A stretch of 64,000 bases of DNA, from NCBI RefSeq assembly GCF_900142395.1, contig NZ_FRAS01000006.1, forward strand, positions 124,001 to 188,000, read 5' to 3'. Source of the stretch: Hymenobacter psychrotolerans DSM 18569. Lineage in GTDB: Bacteria; Bacteroidota; Bacteroidia; Cytophagales; Hymenobacteraceae. The notes beneath the pieces are model-generated. The model ran no database searches and was not told the DNA's origin. It worked only from the letters and a program-made list of their open reading frames with translations. The stretch's first letter is position 1. Each line of letters opens with the position of its first letter. Shown here piece by piece: positions 12,433 through 22,718 of this stretch. Made by a program: the position numbers and the translations under genes.

Positions 12433-15084
12433 TTAAAAGATGTCCTCCATGTCCTCCAGCGCCGCCAAGCTCTGCTCCAGGGCCGTGATTTTGGCTTCGG
12501 CGTCGGCCAGCTTCTGCCGCTCGCGCTCCACCAGGTCGGCTTTGGCGTTGGCCACGAACTTCTCGTTGGCCAGCTTCTTCTGCACCGAATCCCGGAAACC
12601 CTGCGCGTACTCCAGCTCTTTGGTGAGGCGCTCCTTCTCGGCGCCCAGGTCAATCTGGCCTTCCAGCGGCACAAAAAACTCCGCGCCACCTGATACGAAG
12701 CCCACCGAAGCCGCCGGCGCCGCATCCACCACCGAAATTTCGGTGAGGGCGGCCAGCTTCCGGATAATGCCGTCGTAGTCCTGCAGCAGCTCGGCGTCCT
12801 CGGTTTTGGCGGCCAGCGTCAGGGGCTTGTTGGGACCCAGGCCTTTCTGGTTCCGGATGGTGCGCACGCCCGCTACAATGTCGAGGGCGCGCTCCATGCG
12901 GGCCAGCGGCTCGGCGCTGCCGGCTACAGGCTGCGCCTTGGGCCACGCCGCTACGCATACATAGTCCTTGGGGCCCCGCTCCGCCAGCTCGTGCCAGATT
13001 TCTTCCGTGATGAAGGGCATGAACGGATGCAGCAGCTTGAGCAGCGTTTCGAGGAAACCGGTGGTCAGGCGCAGCGTTTCGGGGTCAATCGGGGCCTGGT
13101 AAGCCGGCTTGATCATCTCCAGATACACCGAGCAGAAGTCGTCCCACACCAGCTTGTACACGGTCATCAGCGCGTCGCTCATCCGGAACTTCTCGAAATG
13201 CTCGTCCAGCTCGGCCAGCGTGGTCTGCAGCTTGGCTCCGAACCACTCCACGGCCTTCTCATTCACGAAGGGCAATGCGGCGTCTACTTCCCAGCCCTGT
13301 GTAAGGCGGAAGGCGTTCCAGAGCTTGTTGGTGAAGTTGCGGCCCTGCTCTACCAGCTTAATATCGAACAGCAAATCGTTGCCGGCCGGCGACGAGAACA
13401 ACATGCCGGTCCGGACGCCGTCGGCGCCGTACTGCGCAATCAGGTCCAGCGGGTCGGGCGAGTTGCCGAGCTGCTTGCTCATCTTGCGGCCCTGGTCGTC
13501 GCGCACGATGCCCGTGAGGTAGACGTTGCGGAACGGCACTTCCTTGCGGTATTCCAGCCCGGCCATAATCATGCGCGCCACCCAGAAAAACAGGATTTCC
13601 GGGGCCGTTACCAGGTCGTTGGTCGGGTAGAAATAGTTGACATCGGCGTTGTCGGGGTCCTTGAAGCCGTCGAACACCGAAATCGGCCACAGCCACGACG
13701 AAAACCACGTATCCAGCACGTCCTCGTCCTGGCGCAGGTCCGAGAGCTGCAGGGCGTCGTTGCCGCTCTGTGTGCGGGCCAGCTTCAGGGCTTCCTCGGC
13801 GTTCAGGGCTACCACAAACGTGCCATCGGGCAGGTAGTAGGCCGGAATGCGCTGGCCCCACCACAGCTGCCGCGAAATGCACCAGTCGCGCACGTTCTCC
13901 ATCCACACCCGGTACATGTTCTTGAACTTGGGCGGGTGCAGCTTGATTTCGTCGGTTTCCACGGCTTCCAGCGCCGGCTTGGCCAGGTGCTCCATTTTCA
14001 GGAACCACTGCAAGCTCAGGCGCGGCTCAATGACGGCGCCGGTGCGCTCCGACGTCTGCAGTACGCTGGCGTACTCCTCCACCTTCACCAGATGGCCGGC
14101 TTCCTGCAGGTCTTTCACGATGTTGCGGCGGGCCGCAAACCGGTCCTGGCCCACGTACAGCTCCGCCTTCTCGTTCAGCGTGCCGTCGTTGTGGAGGATA
14201 TCAATTACCGGCAGGTTGTGCTTGAGGCCCAGCTCGTAGTCGTTCAGGTCGTGCGCCGGCGTCACCTTCAGCGCGCCCGTCCCGAAGTCGATGCTCACGT
14301 ACTCGTCCAGAATCACCGGAATTTCGCGGCCCAGCAGCGGAATCCGCACGTTGGTGCCGTGTAGGGACGTGTAGCGCGGGTCGTTGGGGTTCACGGCCAC
14401 GGCCACGTCGGCCATGATGGTTTCGGGGCGCGAAGTAGCAACGGTCAGAAACTGGCCTTCCTGCCCTACTACTTCGTAGCGCAGGTGGTACATTTTGGCC
14501 ATCGTGTCCTTCGGAATTACTTCCTCGTCTGACAGCGCCGTGCCGCCTTTGGGGTCCCAGTTTACCATCCGGATGCCGCGGTAAATCAGGCCTTTCTGGT
14601 GCAGATCCACGAACACGCGCAGCACGGCCTCGGTCAGCTCGGGCTCCATCGTGAAGCGCGTCCGGTCCCAGTCGCAGGAGGCGCCCAGCTTCTTGAGCTG
14701 CTCCAGAATGATGCCGCCGTACTTCTCCTTCCACTCCCAGGCGTGTTCCAGAAACTGCTCCCGGGTCAGGTCCTTCTTCTCGATGCCTTTCTCCTTGAGC
14801 AGCGCCACCACCTTGGCCTCCGTGGCAATGGAAGCGTGGTCGGTGCCGGGCACCCAGCAGGCTTCCTTGCCCTGCATGCGGGCGCGGCGCACCAGCACAT
14901 CCTGAATGGTGTTGTTGAGCATGTGGCCCATGTGCAGCACGCCCGTCACGTTGGGCGGCGGAATCACAACCGAATACGGCTGTTTGCGGGGGTTGGCCTT
15001 GGCTTTGAAGAAGCCCTGCTCCTGCCAGCGCTGATACCATTTGGCTTCAACGTCGGCCGGCGTATAGGTTTTGGCGATAGACAT
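12433..15084 (-). CDS. valS: Valyl-tRNA synthetase
   Basis: An 883-residue class I aminoacyl-tRNA synthetase that charges tRNA-Val. The HIGH motif appears as HMGH (about 51-54) within PPPNVTGVLHMGHM, and KMSKS as KMSKQ (about 533-537). The editing domain lies between them, the anticodon-binding domain follows, and the last 60 residues form the Val-specific coiled-coil arm (EKERLTKELEYAQGFRDSV). Length is typical for the family. ATG 15084 is preferred to the in-frame TTG at 15090. A minus-strand promoter box TACTTTTG lies 32 bp upstream. Confidence 0.98.
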   Translation of the reverse strand: MSIAKTYTPADVEAKWYQRWQEQGFFKAKANPRKQPYSVVIPPPNVTGVLHMGHMLNNTIQDVLVRRARMQGKEACWVPGTDHASIATEAKVVALLKEKGIEKKDLTREQFLEHAWEWKEKYGGIILEQLKKLGASCDWDRTRFTMEPELTEAVLRVFVDLHQKGLIYRGIRMVNWDPKGGTALSDEEVIPKDTMAKMYHLRYEVVGQEGQFLTVATSRPETIMADVAVAVNPNDPRYTSLHGTNVRIPLLGREIPVILDEYVSIDFGTGALKVTPAHDLNDYELGLKHNLPVIDILHNDGTLNEKAELYVGQDRFAARRNIVKDLQEAGHLVKVEEYASVLQTSERTGAVIEPRLSLQWFLKMEHLAKPALEAVETDEIKLHPPKFKNMYRVWMENVRDWCISRQLWWGQRIPAYYLPDGTFVVALNAEEALKLARTQSGNDALQLSDLRQDEDVLDTWFSSWLWPISVFDGFKDPDNADVNYFYPTNDLVTAPEILFFWVARMIMAGLEYRKEVPFRNVYLTGIVRDDQGRKMSKQLGNSPDPLDLIAQYGADGVRTGMLFSSPAGNDLLFDIKLVEQGRNFTNKLWNAFRLTQGWEVDAALPFVNEKAVEWFGAKLQTTLAELDEHFEKFRMSDALMTVYKLVWDDFCSVYLEMIKPAYQAPIDPETLRLTTGFLETLLKLLHPFMPFITEEIWHELAERGPKDYVCVAAWPKAQPVAGSAEPLARMERALDIVAGVRTIRNQKGLGPNKPLTLAAKTEDAELLQDYDGIIRKLAALTEISVVDAAPAASVGFVSGGAEFFVPLEGQIDLGAEKERLTKELEYAQGFRDSVQKKLANEKFVANAKADLVERERQKLADAEAKITALEQSLAALEDMEDIF

Positions 15085-15115
15085 CGTCAAGCGAAAAATC
15101 GGTTGGAATTAGGCG

Positions 15116-15328: not shown

Positions 15329-16276
15329 ATGGCCGCTTTATTTAAATTCCGTAAATCTTCGCCGGTAGCGCCGGCGGCCAGTGTGGCCGCTGCGCCGGCT
15401 CCGGCTCCGCCTACTGTAATGCCCTCGGCCGGCACGCTGCGCGTCGGGATGGGCCAGCTGCTGGTGGAAGGCGGCGAGCCCGACCGCAACCTGGAGCGCG
15501 CGGCCCTGATGATTGCCGAAGCCGCCCAGCAGCACTGCGACGTGGTGCTGCTGCCAGAAACCCTCGACTTTGCCTGGACTCACCCCAGCGCGCTGGCCGA
15601 AGCGCAGCCCATTCCCGGCCGCTACTCCGACCTGCTGTGCCAGGAAGCCGTGCGCCATCAGCTCTACATCTGTGCCGGCCTGACGGAGCGCGCGCCGGAC
15701 GGCCGCAACTATAATGCGGCCATCCTCATCAACCCGGCCGGCGAAATCATCACGAAGTACCACAAAATCAACCTCCTGACCGTGGAGCAGCCCTACTACG
15801 CGGTGGGTCAGACGCTGAACGTGGTGGATACGCCTCTGGGCAAAATCGGGGTCAATATCTGCGCCGACAACTTCCTCGATGGCCTCAGCATCGGGCACAC
15901 GCTGGCACGTATGGGGGCCGAGTTTATTCTGTCGCCCTCGTCCTGGACCGTCGATTATTCTATCACGGAGGAGGACGACCCGTACCGCGAGAAATGGGTG
16001 AAGCCGTATTCCATTCTGGCTAAGCTGTACAACGTGACGGTAGTGGGCACTACCTCGGTCGGCTATATTGTGGGCGGGCCGTATGAGGGCAAGAAAAGTG
16101 TGGGCTGCTCGCTGGCCGTAGACGCTTCGGGGGTGCGGGCGCAGGGCACGTTCAACGAATTTGCCGGCGACTTGGTAGTGGCCGACCTGCCGCGGCCGGT
16201 GCGGGCCGAAAAGGGCACACAGATTGGCGAGATGCTGCTTCGCAAAGGCTTCCGGTTTGATGTGTTGCCCGACTAA
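15329..16276 (+). CDS. Carbon-nitrogen hydrolase (nitrilase superfamily amidase)
   Basis: A 315-residue nitrilase-fold hydrolase. The catalytic triad can be read: Glu77 in LPET, Lys146 in KYHKINLL and Cys178 in NICADN, with the usual spacing. The first 33 residues are an Ala/Pro-rich extension before the domain begins at GTLRVGMGQ. The family cleaves C-N bonds of amides, releasing ammonia. Its immediate partner, 86 bp downstream on the same strand, is a PP-loop sugar amidotransferase that needs ammonia. Glutamine-dependent NAD synthetase combines exactly these two folds, so this enzyme may be the ammonia donor. Substrate remains unproven; generic omega-amidase activity is the alternative. Confidence 0.88.
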   Translation: MAALFKFRKSSPVAPAASVAAAPAPAPPTVMPSAGTLRVGMGQLLVEGGEPDRNLERAALMIAEAAQQHCDVVLLPETLDFAWTHPSALAEAQPIPGRYSDLLCQEAVRHQLYICAGLTERAPDGRNYNAAILINPAGEIITKYHKINLLTVEQPYYAVGQTLNVVDTPLGKIGVNICADNFLDGLSIGHTLARMGAEFILSPSSWTVDYSITEEDDPYREKWVKPYSILAKLYNVTVVGTTSVGYIVGGPYEGKKSVGCSLAVDASGVRAQGTFNEFAGDLVVADLPRPVRAEKGTQIGEMLLRKGFRFDVLPD

Positions 16277-16362
16277 TTTTTACCAGATTGGTTGGTTTTA
16301 ATGCCTCTTTAATATGAGAAAATGACCTTGCAGCCTCTCTGTCCCTCTTCCCTACCTATTGC

Positions 16363-17526
16363 ATGACCCAACTCTACCAACAGTGCACCCGCTGCATCAT
16401 GGATACCACCGTGCCCGGTATCCGTTTTGATAAGCGGGGTGAGTGTAATTTTTGTGCTGTACACGACCACATGGACCGGGCCTTCCCGCTGGGCGAGGCC
16501 GGCCGCCGCAAAGTGCAGGAAATAGCCGCCGACATCAAGCAGCTTGGCAAAGGCAAGAAATACGACTGCGTGCTGGGCGTCAGCGGGGGCCGCGACTCGT
16601 CTTTCACGCTCTGGTACTGTGTAGTAAAGCTGGGGCTACGGCCGCTGGCGGTGCATTTCAACGACGGTTTCGGCAACCCAGTGGCGGGCGAAAACATGAT
16701 TAAGGCCTGCCGCAAGCTGGGCGTGGAAATGCGCACCATCACCTCCGACTGGCGCGAATCCAAGGACCTGAAAATTGCTTTCCTGAAAGCCTCCACCCCC
16801 GATATGGAGGAAGGCACCGATGTGGGCATTGCCACGGCTCTGTATGGCGTGGCCGCCAAGGAAGGCATTCAGCGCATCATCATCGGGCAGTCGTTTCGGA
16901 CGGAGGGCATTGCGCCGCTCACCTGGAACTACCTCGATGGCAAGTACCTGAAGGCTGTGCACCAGCAGTTCGGGACGGTGCCGCTGCGCCCCTGGAAGGC
17001 CGAAGACCCCGGCTTTCACCTCGACATTCCGCAGATGTTCTACTACGCCTTCGTCCGCCGGATCAAGACGGTAACGCTGCTGTACCACATCGACTATGTG
17101 CGCGCCGATGTAGACGAGCTGCTCGAGCGTGAGCTGGACTGGGTGAACCCCGGTGCTCACTACTTCGACGACCTGTACCAGAGCGTCATCTACTACCTCA
17201 ACCGCACCAAGTTCAACATCGACCGGCGCCTGTTCAACTATTCGGCGCTGGTGCGCTCGGGCCAGATGCCGCGCGAAACGGCACTGGAGCGCGTCAGCCA
17301 CGTCAATAAGATTGAGGACGAAAAGGTAATTGCGCTATGCATTAAGCGCCTGGGCCTGACGCGGGAAGAGTTTGAGCAGATTGTGGCCACGCCTCCCAAA
17401 ACGTTCCGCGACTACCCCAACAACTACTCCCTGATTCGGCGGCTGCGCTGGCCCATCAAGGTGCTGAGCCGCATGAACCTGATTCCAGAATCGGCCTACG
17501 ACAAGTACTTCAACTGCGGCACCTAA
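16363..17526 (+). CDS. N-acetyl sugar amidotransferase (WbpG/PseA/LegX-like)
   Basis: A 387-residue PP-loop enzyme of the N-acetyl sugar amidotransferase family, which converts a sugar acetamido group to an acetamidino group in surface glycans. Two Cys pairs, C8-x-x-C11 and C28-x-x-C31, form a probable zinc site; the ATP-binding PP-loop SGGRDS is at residues 74-79. Further family motifs include GQSFRTEGIAP and the Trp-x5-Asp-PGF region. WbpG normally works with HisH- and HisF-like partners that make ammonia; none is present here and a nitrilase-fold protein lies directly upstream instead. NeuD-like and membrane proteins of possible glycan function lie 5-6 kb away. The gene ends next to a long inverted repeat. 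Confidence 0.88.
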   Translation: MTQLYQQCTRCIMDTTVPGIRFDKRGECNFCAVHDHMDRAFPLGEAGRRKVQEIAADIKQLGKGKKYDCVLGVSGGRDSSFTLWYCVVKLGLRPLAVHFNDGFGNPVAGENMIKACRKLGVEMRTITSDWRESKDLKIAFLKASTPDMEEGTDVGIATALYGVAAKEGIQRIIIGQSFRTEGIAPLTWNYLDGKYLKAVHQQFGTVPLRPWKAEDPGFHLDIPQMFYYAFVRRIKTVTLLYHIDYVRADVDELLERELDWVNPGAHYFDDLYQSVIYYLNRTKFNIDRRLFNYSALVRSGQMPRETALERVSHVNKIEDEKVIALCIKRLGLTREEFEQIVATPPKTFRDYPNNYSLIRRLRWPIKVLSRMNLIPESAYDKYFNCGT

Positions 17527-17533
17527 GACCACG

Positions 17534-17710
17534 CTAAGACCACGGATTTTTCGGATGAGTCGGATTTTGGGGACGGCATCTGCTTCCAAACTTCCGGCCG
17601 GCTACCCAACAACAAAGGCTTGCCAGTAGGCAAGCCTTTGTTGTTCAGAAGAAAACCACACGTCCAATCGTCTACAAAATCCGACTCATCCGAAAAATCC
17701 GTGGTCTTAG
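17534..17710. repeat. Nested long inverted repeat between convergent genes
   Basis: Perfect 35-bp arms, 17534-17568 and 17676-17710, enclose a 107-bp centre that itself holds a perfect 17-bp hairpin (17608-17645). The right arm runs over the stop codon of the ferredoxin gene (17707-17709); the left arm begins 8 bp after the amidotransferase stop, and a shorter direct copy of its first bases, CTAAGACCACG, overlaps that stop. The outer arms are AT-richer than the surroundings and look like a mobile or repeat-derived element rather than a simple terminator. Confidence 0.85.
17608..17645. terminator. Bidirectional terminator inside the nested repeat
   Basis: Perfect 17-bp arms (17608-17624 and 17629-17645) with a 4-nt loop and AAC/GTT-rich ends, midway between the convergent amidotransferase and ferredoxin genes. 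Confidence 0.8.
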
Positions 17711-18051
17711 GCGTGCAGCCACTCTTTCTTGGCAATCAGCTTCTCCTGCGACTCCCGGTAGTCGGGGTCATCTACGCAGCAGTCAACGGGGCATACGGCG
17801 GCGCACTGCGGCTCCTCATGGAAGCCCACGCACTCCGTGCACTTGTCCGACACGATGTAGTAGTACTCGTCGGAAACGGGGGTTTGGGGCGCCACGCCCG
17901 ATACCGTCTGGCCACCATCAACGGTTACCTCTTTCAGGGTCGTACCATCGGCCCAGCGCCAGGCAGCGCCGCCCTCGTAGATGGCAGTATTCGGGCATTC
18001 CGGTTCGCAGGCACCACAGTTGATGCACTCGTCGGTTATCATGATGGCCAT
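17707..18051 (-). CDS. 2[4Fe-4S] ferredoxin (Alvin type)
   Basis: A 114-residue electron carrier. The first cluster motif is C9-x2-C12-x2-C15-x3-C19-P (CINCGACEPECP); the second, around residues 72-90, has the widened spacing CTECVGFHEEPQCAAVCP that marks Alvin/YfhL-type ferredoxins. An insertion of about 45 residues separates the two. The start is ATG 18051, where similarity begins; an open frame continues upstream to 18453 but it opposes the LuxC-like gene and is not coding. It is divergent from the acyl-CoA reductase gene, a neighbour often seen with ferredoxin in Bacteroidota. Confidence 0.93.
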   Translation of the reverse strand: MAIMITDECINCGACEPECPNTAIYEGGAAWRWADGTTLKEVTVDGGQTVSGVAPQTPVSDEYYYIVSDKCTECVGFHEEPQCAAVCPVDCCVDDPDYRESQEKLIAKKEWLHA

Positions 18052-18268
18052 AGCCGTGGAATCAGTTTGGTGAGAAATCTGAACGTTATAACGCAAAAAA
18101 AGGCCACAGGGCGGCCGGTTCAGCAAGCAAAAGTAGAAACTAACTCGTAGCGTTGCGAGTTTTTTGCTGACACGCCCCCCGGATACGGCCCCGCCGGCCA
18201 GCGAAACCCCACGTTTGCCGTTCTTGCAGCCGTGCGGCAGGCGCTTTTCTGCTACCTCACTTTCGCTT

Positions 18269-19282
18269 ATGAACCACCCCGACCGACTCGCGGCCTTTAT
18301 TTCTCTGGGCCGGCACCTGCGCCAGCTTTCCGACGACGACCTGACTGCCCTCTCCGCCCGGACCCGCAACCAGAACGCCTGGTTCGACCGCCCGAATGTC
18401 GTTTCGGCCATCCGGGGCATTGCGGAGCTGCTCGAAGAAGAACCGCTGACCAAATGGGCCGCCCGCTACCCCGCCGAGCCCGCCACGCCCCGCCAGGTAG
18501 GCGTGGTAATGGCCGGCAATATCCCGCTGGTGGGCTTCCACGATGCGCTGTGCGTGCTGCTCAGCGGCCACGTGCTGCTGGCCAAACTCAGCAAAGACGA
18601 TACGCTGCTCATGCAATGGATTCTGGGCGAGCTGCAACGCCTCGAGCCCCGCTTCACCGACCAGATTCAGGTGGTAGAGCGCCTCAATGCCGCCGATGCC
18701 TTCATTGCCACCGGCTCCGACAACACGGCCCGCTACTTCGACTACTACTTCGGCAAGAAGCCCCACATCATCCGGCGCAACCGCACCAGCGTGGCTGTGC
18801 TCACCGGCCGCGAGGAATCCCACGACCTGGGCCTGCTGGGCGAAGACATTTTCCGCTACTACGGCCTGGGCTGCCGCAACGTGAGCAAGCTCTACGTGCC
18901 CCTGAACTACGATTTCTCGCCCCTGCTCGACTCGCTGCAGCCGTGGCACCACATCCCCGACCACCACAAGTACCAGAACAACTACGACTACAACAAAAGC
19001 ATCCTGCTCGTCAACCGCGTGCCGCACCTCGACACCGGTTTTCTGCTGCTCACGGAAAGCCCGCAGCTCGTTTCCCCGATTTCGGTGCTGCACTACAGCA
19101 CCTATTCCAGCGAGGTAGATCTGGTAGATCAGCTGACCGATGTAGCCGCTCAGACCCAGTGCATTGTGTCGGCCGGCGGGCAGTGGGCCGGCAGCTTCCC
19201 GTTCGGGCGGGCGCAGTGTCCGGCCGTGTCCGATTATGCCGATGGCGTGGATACGATGGCCTTTTTGGCAGAATTGGCGTAA
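18269..19282 (+). CDS. LuxC-like acyl-CoA reductase
   Basis: A 337-residue protein of the acyl-CoA reductase (LuxC) family, aldehyde-dehydrogenase fold, which reduces activated fatty acyl groups to aldehydes with NADPH. Visible features: VGVVMAGNIPLVGFHD (the LuxC nucleotide-binding entry), LLAKLSKDD, ATGSDNTARYFDYYF and the catalytic-Cys segment GLGCRNVSKLYVP. It is shorter than Vibrio LuxC (about 480), as is usual for Bacteroidota versions. ATG 18269 is chosen because conserved sequence starts there. A LuxE-like acyl-protein synthetase is encoded far away at 38335-39333. The pair suggests fatty aldehyde metabolism rather than light emission, since no LuxAB is present. Confidence 0.88.
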   Translation: MNHPDRLAAFISLGRHLRQLSDDDLTALSARTRNQNAWFDRPNVVSAIRGIAELLEEEPLTKWAARYPAEPATPRQVGVVMAGNIPLVGFHDALCVLLSGHVLLAKLSKDDTLLMQWILGELQRLEPRFTDQIQVVERLNAADAFIATGSDNTARYFDYYFGKKPHIIRRNRTSVAVLTGREESHDLGLLGEDIFRYYGLGCRNVSKLYVPLNYDFSPLLDSLQPWHHIPDHHKYQNNYDYNKSILLVNRVPHLDTGFLLLTESPQLVSPISVLHYSTYSSEVDLVDQLTDVAAQTQCIVSAGGQWAGSFPFGRAQCPAVSDYADGVDTMAFLAELA

Positions 19283-22035: not shown

Positions 22036-22668
22036 TTATACTTTCTGAGCGGGGTTGCCGAACACGGTCTGGTTGGCGGGCACATCGGCCACCACCACCG
22101 AGCCAGCCCCAACGCGGGCCTTATTGCCGATTTTGACGCCGGCCACTATTACCGCTCCCGCCCCGATGAAGGCCTGCTCCCCCACCGTCACATCGGCGTT
22201 GAGGATAGCACCGGCCCCGAGCTGCGCGTAGTCGCCGAGTTCCGCGCGGGCTTCCACCACGGCGTTGGCCCCAATCAGGCAGCTGTTGCCCACTTTGGCA
22301 GCGCCTACCACCACGGCGTTGGCGCCCACCAGGTTACCGTGGCCCAGCCACGCATGCTCCGACACGCTGGCGCGCCGATGAATGGCATTCACGGGCACCG
22401 CCTGGTACTCGTTGTGCAGCATGTTGGTGAGGCTGCGGCGGCTGGCGGCATCTTCGGTAGCCACAAAAACCTCACACTTTTTACCCAGCAGCTTCAGCAG
22501 CTCCTTGTCGTCGGTGCTGCCCATCACGGGCACGTCAAACAGCTCGGTGTTCTGCAGCTTGGTATCGTCGTCGAGCAGGCAGTATACCACGACATCGTTA
22601 GAAAGAAAGGCGTCGAGGGCAGAAGTGCCCACCGTTTGGGCACCCAGTATGATGATAGGATTTTCCAT
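22036..22668 (-). CDS. NeuD/PglD-like sugar O- or N-acyltransferase
   Basis: A 210-residue protein with an N-terminal Rossmann-like substrate domain (ENPIIILGAQTVGTSALD) followed by a left-handed beta helix of hexapeptide repeats (about 95-200; GANAVVVGAAKVGNSC, VGEQAFIGAGAVIVAG) and a typical NPAQKV end. Members transfer acetyl groups from acetyl-CoA onto sialic acids or UDP-4-amino sugars during glycan synthesis. ATG 22668 is preferred to the upstream ATG-like start at 22713. A promoter box lies at 22711-22718. No other glycan biosynthesis genes adjoin it except the membrane protein upstream. Confidence 0.88.
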   Translation of the reverse strand: MENPIIILGAQTVGTSALDAFLSNDVVVYCLLDDDTKLQNTELFDVPVMGSTDDKELLKLLGKKCEVFVATEDAASRRSLTNMLHNEYQAVPVNAIHRRASVSEHAWLGHGNLVGANAVVVGAAKVGNSCLIGANAVVEARAELGDYAQLGAGAILNADVTVGEQAFIGAGAVIVAGVKIGNKARVGAGSVVVADVPANQTVFGNPAQKV

Positions 22669-22710
22669 GCGAAGCGAAAAGCGGCCAGCGGCCGGCAGAG
22701 TTCCAAAACG

Positions 22711-22718
22711 CAAATTTA
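22711..22718 (-). promoter_or_regulatory. Promoter -7 element for the NeuD-like gene
   Basis: Minus-strand TAAATTTG fits TAnnTTTG, 43 bp before the start codon. No convincing -33 box. Confidence 0.5.

Follow-up and report, generated by a model that had tools for sequence, protein, structure and literature searches.

A nitrilase-superfamily protein and an N-acetyl sugar amidotransferase encoded side by side in Hymenobacter psychrotolerans: a proposed two-subunit glutamine-dependent enzyme

N-acetyl sugar amidotransferases (NASATs) are characterised by a tetracysteine motif and an SGGxDS motif (PMC10607449). In the WbpG, WbuX and PseA systems, represented structurally by LpNASAT (8WEX), the NASAT is accompanied by HisH/HisF. 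A second relevant system is the two-subunit (type C) NAD synthetase of Thermus thermophilus, in which a nitrilase and a PP-loop synthetase are encoded in one operon and have been shown experimentally to form a glutamine-using complex; class IV glutaminases are listed in that work as those of NAD synthetase (PMC3376133).

Here, we describe a locus of Hymenobacter psychrotolerans DSM 18569 in which a nitrilase gene is followed by a NASAT gene. Both belong to known enzyme families, and our search of the literature outside subscription papers found no account of such a partnership between a nitrilase and a sugar amidotransferase. The locus has the TIGR03573 family, the tetracysteine and the SGGxDS PP-loop in common with the WbpG/WbuX/PseA systems, but it has a nitrilase where these have HisH/HisF, and its NASAT falls in a separate clade with residues of its own. 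As in the T. thermophilus NAD synthetase and the fused NadE, a class IV type of glutaminase would be combined with an ATP-dependent PP-loop amidating enzyme; the synthetase, however, is a NASAT and not NadE. We consider it probable that the pair constitutes one two-subunit glutamine-dependent N-acetyl sugar amidotransferase, with the nitrilase in the place of HisH/HisF.

The locus and its two proteins

The window, i.e. the whole stretch of DNA that was analysed, comprises 64,000 nucleotides. The nitrilase-superfamily gene (15329..16276, + strand) encodes 315 amino acids and matches PF00795 CN_hydrolase (7.5e-33), with a fold match to amidases; after 86 bp it is followed by the ORF of the WbpG/WbuX-like NASAT (16363..17526, + strand; 387 amino acids, TIGR03573 213.3 bits). 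Both ORFs lie exactly where the first-pass annotation had placed them, the nitrilase directly upstream. The flanking genes provide context only. Upstream, valS (12433..15090, - strand; identified by Pfam) is divergent and occupies this place in almost every Hymenobacteraceae locus, which fixes the locus, and downstream lie a YfhL-type ferredoxin gene (- strand) and a LuxC-like acyl-CoA reductase gene (+ strand; together 17707..19282), which are also kept where the pair has been lost (L104). Further downstream, a NeuD/PglB/VioB-family sugar acetyltransferase gene (22036..22713, - strand; TIGR03570 167.9 bits against a cut-off of 160.8) is in synteny at most Hymenobacteraceae loci, among them the one without the pair, and is a possible candidate for the source of the N-acetyl group.

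The nitrilase combines the superfamily profile match with a Glu-Lys-Cys triad, and the earlier claim that this triad is intact was confirmed: Glu77, Lys146 and Cys178 are found here and in every one of 39 diverse orthologues. Glu153, placed by alignment position only, is a candidate second active-site glutamate that is found in 35 of these orthologues and replaced by G or A in the other four. From its context, we propose that the protein is a class IV (nitrilase-type) glutaminase subunit. Its predicted structure is of moderate quality (pLDDT 70) and resembles amidases generally, the closest solved relatives being amidases; the structure was therefore set aside as a test for a glutaminase, since a general amidase match does not tell a glutaminase from other amidases.

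The resemblance to glutamine-dependent NAD synthetase that had been suggested for the pair was upheld, with one correction. The architecture has a direct precedent in the two-gene T. thermophilus enzyme; the nitrilase sequence, however, has a closer match than the glutaminase domain of NadE. It scored 80.8 bits with an archaeal-type nitrilase/amidase model and 42.9 with the NAD synthetase model (NF010588/PRK13981), far below the cut-off of 479 for membership of that family, and the partner belongs to TIGR03573. The closer match to the archaeal-type model makes it more likely that the nitrilase was recruited separately than that it derives from a transplanted or split NadE domain.

The first 35 residues of the nitrilase (15329..15433, + strand) consist of the peptide MAALFKFRK and a Pro/Ala-rich linker. 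A peptide of the type M-x-x-L-F-S-F-R-K, with a variable Pro/Ala-rich linker after it, starts the protein in 74 of 77 Hymenobacteraceae loci, while orthologues from other phyla mostly do not have it and align mostly from residue 30-37. This peptide may serve to anchor the protein, either to the NASAT or to the membrane.

The NASAT scored approximately 10 bits above the TIGR03573 (WbuX / N-acetyl sugar amidotransferase) cut-off of 203.2 bits and is the only TIGR03573 protein in the H. psychrotolerans genome. The zinc tetracysteine CxxC...CxxC is represented by the invariant C8, C11, C28 and C31, and the SGGxDS PP-loop by S74, G75, G76, R77, D78 and S79, which are conserved in the clade. Beside these shared residues, the nitrilase-clade NASATs have N100, D101, F103, S128 and R131 and an insert at 215-218 of their own, and these clade-specific features (approximately 100-131, with the insert) could belong to the interface with the partner or to an altered acceptor site. 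The predicted structure of this subunit was of too low a quality (pLDDT 51) to be used, for which a shallow alignment is probably the cause.

Conservation of the pair

Orthologues were identified in 150 Hymenobacteraceae genomes with thresholds of >520 bits for the nitrilase and >690 bits for the full-length NASAT. Both were present in the same 46 genomes and both absent from the remaining 104, with no discordant genome (Fisher p ~1e-39, which overstates independence as the genomes are related). The two genes are same-strand neighbours in all 46, with gaps of 64-203 bp. In one genome (G094, locus L104) the pair is gone from the spot between valS and the ferredoxin gene, where a 68-codon C-terminal remnant of the NASAT is left, and the genome holds no nitrilase orthologue; this scar indicates that the pair was lost jointly. 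A nitrilase relative of 35% identity in G306 (L067) has no NASAT partner and, as a member of another branch, was left out. In G041, a second NASAT copy on contig 35 (L107) has no nitrilase beside it, with a nitrilase-NASAT set elsewhere in the genome; the neighbours of this second copy are FdtA-, LPG_synthase_TM- and PMT/ArnT-like genes.

An alignment of the nitrilase was also scanned against a species-level collection of 84,980 species. The scan yielded 80 loci, of which 61 were from Bacteroidota, covering several orders, 14 from Omnitrophota, one each from Acidobacteriota, Bdellovibrionota and Myxococcota, and two unassigned (one titled Nealsonbacteria). Many of these organisms are metagenome bins and single placements may err, yet the pattern spans many assemblies. 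One locus ends at a contig edge, leaving 79 to be counted for adjacency, and in 77 of them the NASAT lies directly downstream of the nitrilase; in the other two it is directly upstream (L222) or 3.2 kb downstream (L204). Among 26 scored loci outside Hymenobacter, 14 have the two genes overlapping or no more than 20 nt apart. At seven distant loci, identity to the H. psychrotolerans proteins was 56-70% for the nitrilase and 51-71% for the NASAT, and the distances of the two proteins are correlated (r 0.70, Mantel 0/2000). A strong nitrilase orthologue was found in only the two Hymenobacter members of a separate sample of 395 Bacteroidota; the pair is thus rare in the phylum. At one locus (L268:7556-9534, - strand), the C-terminal part of the nitrilase and the NASAT share a single frame of 457 amino acids, with the N-terminal part of the nitrilase in another frame. 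This arrangement may be a fusion, a frameshift or an assembly error, and it was not counted as a fusion because no single frame holds the whole nitrilase.

Conservation of the adjacency in relatives, on which the first-pass annotation had made its proposal depend, hence extends across phyla. Chance or hitch-hiking without any functional link could be argued from Hymenobacter alone, where the whole region from valS to the ferredoxin gene is syntenic and the adjacency could simply be inherited. Such a reading is contradicted by adjacency across phyla amid wholly different flanks and by the absence or loss of both genes together, and we regard it as extremely improbable.

Ammonia partners across the NASAT family

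The reported lack of a HisH/HisF partner at this locus holds for the entire H. psychrotolerans genome. The dedicated HisH and HisF genes of a WbpG-HisH-HisF system are absent, and full-length HisA/HisF, with an adjoining HisH, occur only in the his operon. No HisH/HisF was found near the NASAT at any of the nitrilase-paired loci examined. Conversely, HisH-HisF adjoin 10/10 divergent Hymenobacteraceae NASATs (24-37% identity in the matched region) and the nitrilase orthologue never does. In a wider survey of Bacteroidota, most NASATs adjoin HisH/HisF and a few have neither in the stretch examined. A survey of 237 Omnitrophota genomes that started from the NASAT gave the same division, in that close relatives have the nitrilase whereas those of 38-46% identity have HisH/HisF; the exception is an extra copy in G620 (C9:35806) without an adjoining nitrilase, in a genome that carries a nitrilase-NASAT set elsewhere. 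Two Omnitrophota genomes (G735 and G548) contain one NASAT of each kind, each with its own partner.

In a tree of 98 NASATs, a single clade (SH-aLRT 100) holds all nitrilase-paired rows as well as the additional Hymenobacter copy, and nitrilase pairing is parted from HisH/HisF pairing by one change; this was a quick tree, with long branches for some of the rows that fall elsewhere. The mutual exclusion of nitrilase and HisH/HisF at NASAT loci fits what one would expect if the one had replaced the other as ammonia source, and the most likely explanation is that the nitrilase took over from HisH/HisF in this dedicated role.

At five Bacteroidota loci (L111-L115, e.g. L111:6112-8145), a NASAT-like domain with the tetracysteine and SGGRDS is fused to a class II glutaminase. 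These proteins have a NASAT-type PP-loop domain and a dedicated glutaminase in common with the Hymenobacter pair, but here a single chain carries both, the glutaminase being its N-terminal Ntn domain, which starts with MCGIF; such fusions would represent a third type of ammonia source for the family. Separately, an NRPS-like protein of 1339 amino acids (L116:8524-12540, - strand) has condensation, AMP-binding and carrier domains and, set between these, a WbuX/QueC-like PP-loop region.

A competing explanation is that the nitrilase acts on the same glycan, where it would hydrolyse an amide or N-acyl group or transfer one, and that the NASAT uses free ammonia. Some single-domain synthetases do use free ammonia in vivo (PMC3376133), and besides the amidases that include the closest solved relatives, the nitrilase superfamily contains carbamoylases and N-acyltransferases (e.g. 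Lnt). This explanation nevertheless does not account for why nitrilase and HisH/HisF exclude each other throughout the NASAT tree, and the dedicated class I glutaminase or fused class II domain of other NASATs implies that the family generally has an ammonia source. We therefore consider it unlikely. The split amidotransferase suggested by the first-pass annotation is supported, as far as sequence evidence can reach, by the conserved adjacency and by the mutual exclusion.

Sugar-pathway context and proposed reaction

Neighbouring genes were counted at 36 loci, among which some records overlap. In Omnitrophota, Flavobacteriales and Cytophagales bins, the pair is accompanied by an ArnC-like undecaprenyl-phosphate transferase at 21 loci, an SMR-type small flippase at 20, a PseC/ArnB-like aminotransferase at 17, a LegB-like dehydratase at 17 and a NeuD-like acetyltransferase at 12, with GT-C-like membrane proteins in a few. 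A NodU-like carbamoyltransferase is found near the pair instead in eight loci, mostly of other Bacteroidota, and in one Bacteroidota sub-group it lies directly 3' of the pair (L206, L210, L212, L213, L217, L224 and L228). The neighbours of the distant orthologues resemble the ArnB/PseC, ArnC, ArnF-type SMR flippase and GT-C transferase components of the undecaprenyl-phosphate pathway for L-Ara4N (Arn); in contrast to Arn, the 4,6-dehydratase, NeuD-like acetyltransferase and NASAT imply an amidino-deoxysugar. Judged from gene content, the Arn-like set would produce an N-acetylated 4-amino-deoxysugar, flip it and transfer it, and the NASAT could convert this sugar to a cationic amidine.

The Hymenobacter locus itself is outside sugar clusters and has no adjoining sugar genes. 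Apart from the NeuD-type acetyltransferase at 22036-22713, the candidate sugar genes of H. psychrotolerans are on another contig (L287). In genome G000, an unlinked cluster contains a dehydratase, a PseC-like aminotransferase, acetyltransferases and an ArnC-like transferase. The ArnC-like transferase was discarded as a co-occurrence test, being too common in Hymenobacteraceae.

This separation from any sugar cluster, the narrow margin of about 10 bits over the TIGR03573 cut-off and the clade-specific NASAT residues would suit a true amidotransferase whose family membership is marginal and whose acceptor in Hymenobacter is a lipid, a peptide or another amide rather than an N-acetyl sugar. Against it, orthologues at 51-71% identity lie among genes for 4,6-dehydratase, aminotransferase, acetyltransferase and undecaprenyl-phosphate glycosyltransferase, the second Hymenobacter copy (L107) is beside the FdtA-, LPG_synthase_TM- and PMT/ArnT-like genes given above, and G000 has its unlinked cluster. 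A non-sugar acceptor accordingly appears distinctly improbable, and an N-acetyl sugar is the predicted acceptor.

For the proposed sugar amidotransferase, we infer glutamine as the amide donor, a complex of the two subunits with channelling, an amidine product and a sugar acceptor. The nitrilase subunit would hydrolyse glutamine at the Cys-Glu-Lys site through a thioester intermediate and release ammonia, and the PP-loop subunit would use ATP to adenylate the N-acetyl group of a nucleotide- or undecaprenyl-linked deoxy-sugar; ammonia would then displace AMP to give a cationic acetamidino sugar. We offer more tentatively, as a proposal that may well not hold in full, that a PP-loop amidotransferase of a second kind acquired a class IV (nitrilase-type) glutaminase separately from NAD synthetase, and that in Omnitrophota and some Bacteroidota the pair acts in an Arn-like pathway whose product, a cationic acetamidino-deoxysugar linked to undecaprenyl, is built, flipped and then transferred to the cell surface.

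If this is true, NASATs would have taken up three unrelated ammonia suppliers, namely the class I HisH/HisF, a fused class II domain and a nitrilase, thus providing a natural experiment on the evolution of ammonia delivery and a second, cross-phylum use of nitrilase-type glutaminases. The pair would give a joint function to two proteins that existing family models name only as carbon-nitrogen hydrolase and sugar amidotransferase, and its genes would mark the occurrence of amidino sugars in phyla that are uncultured.
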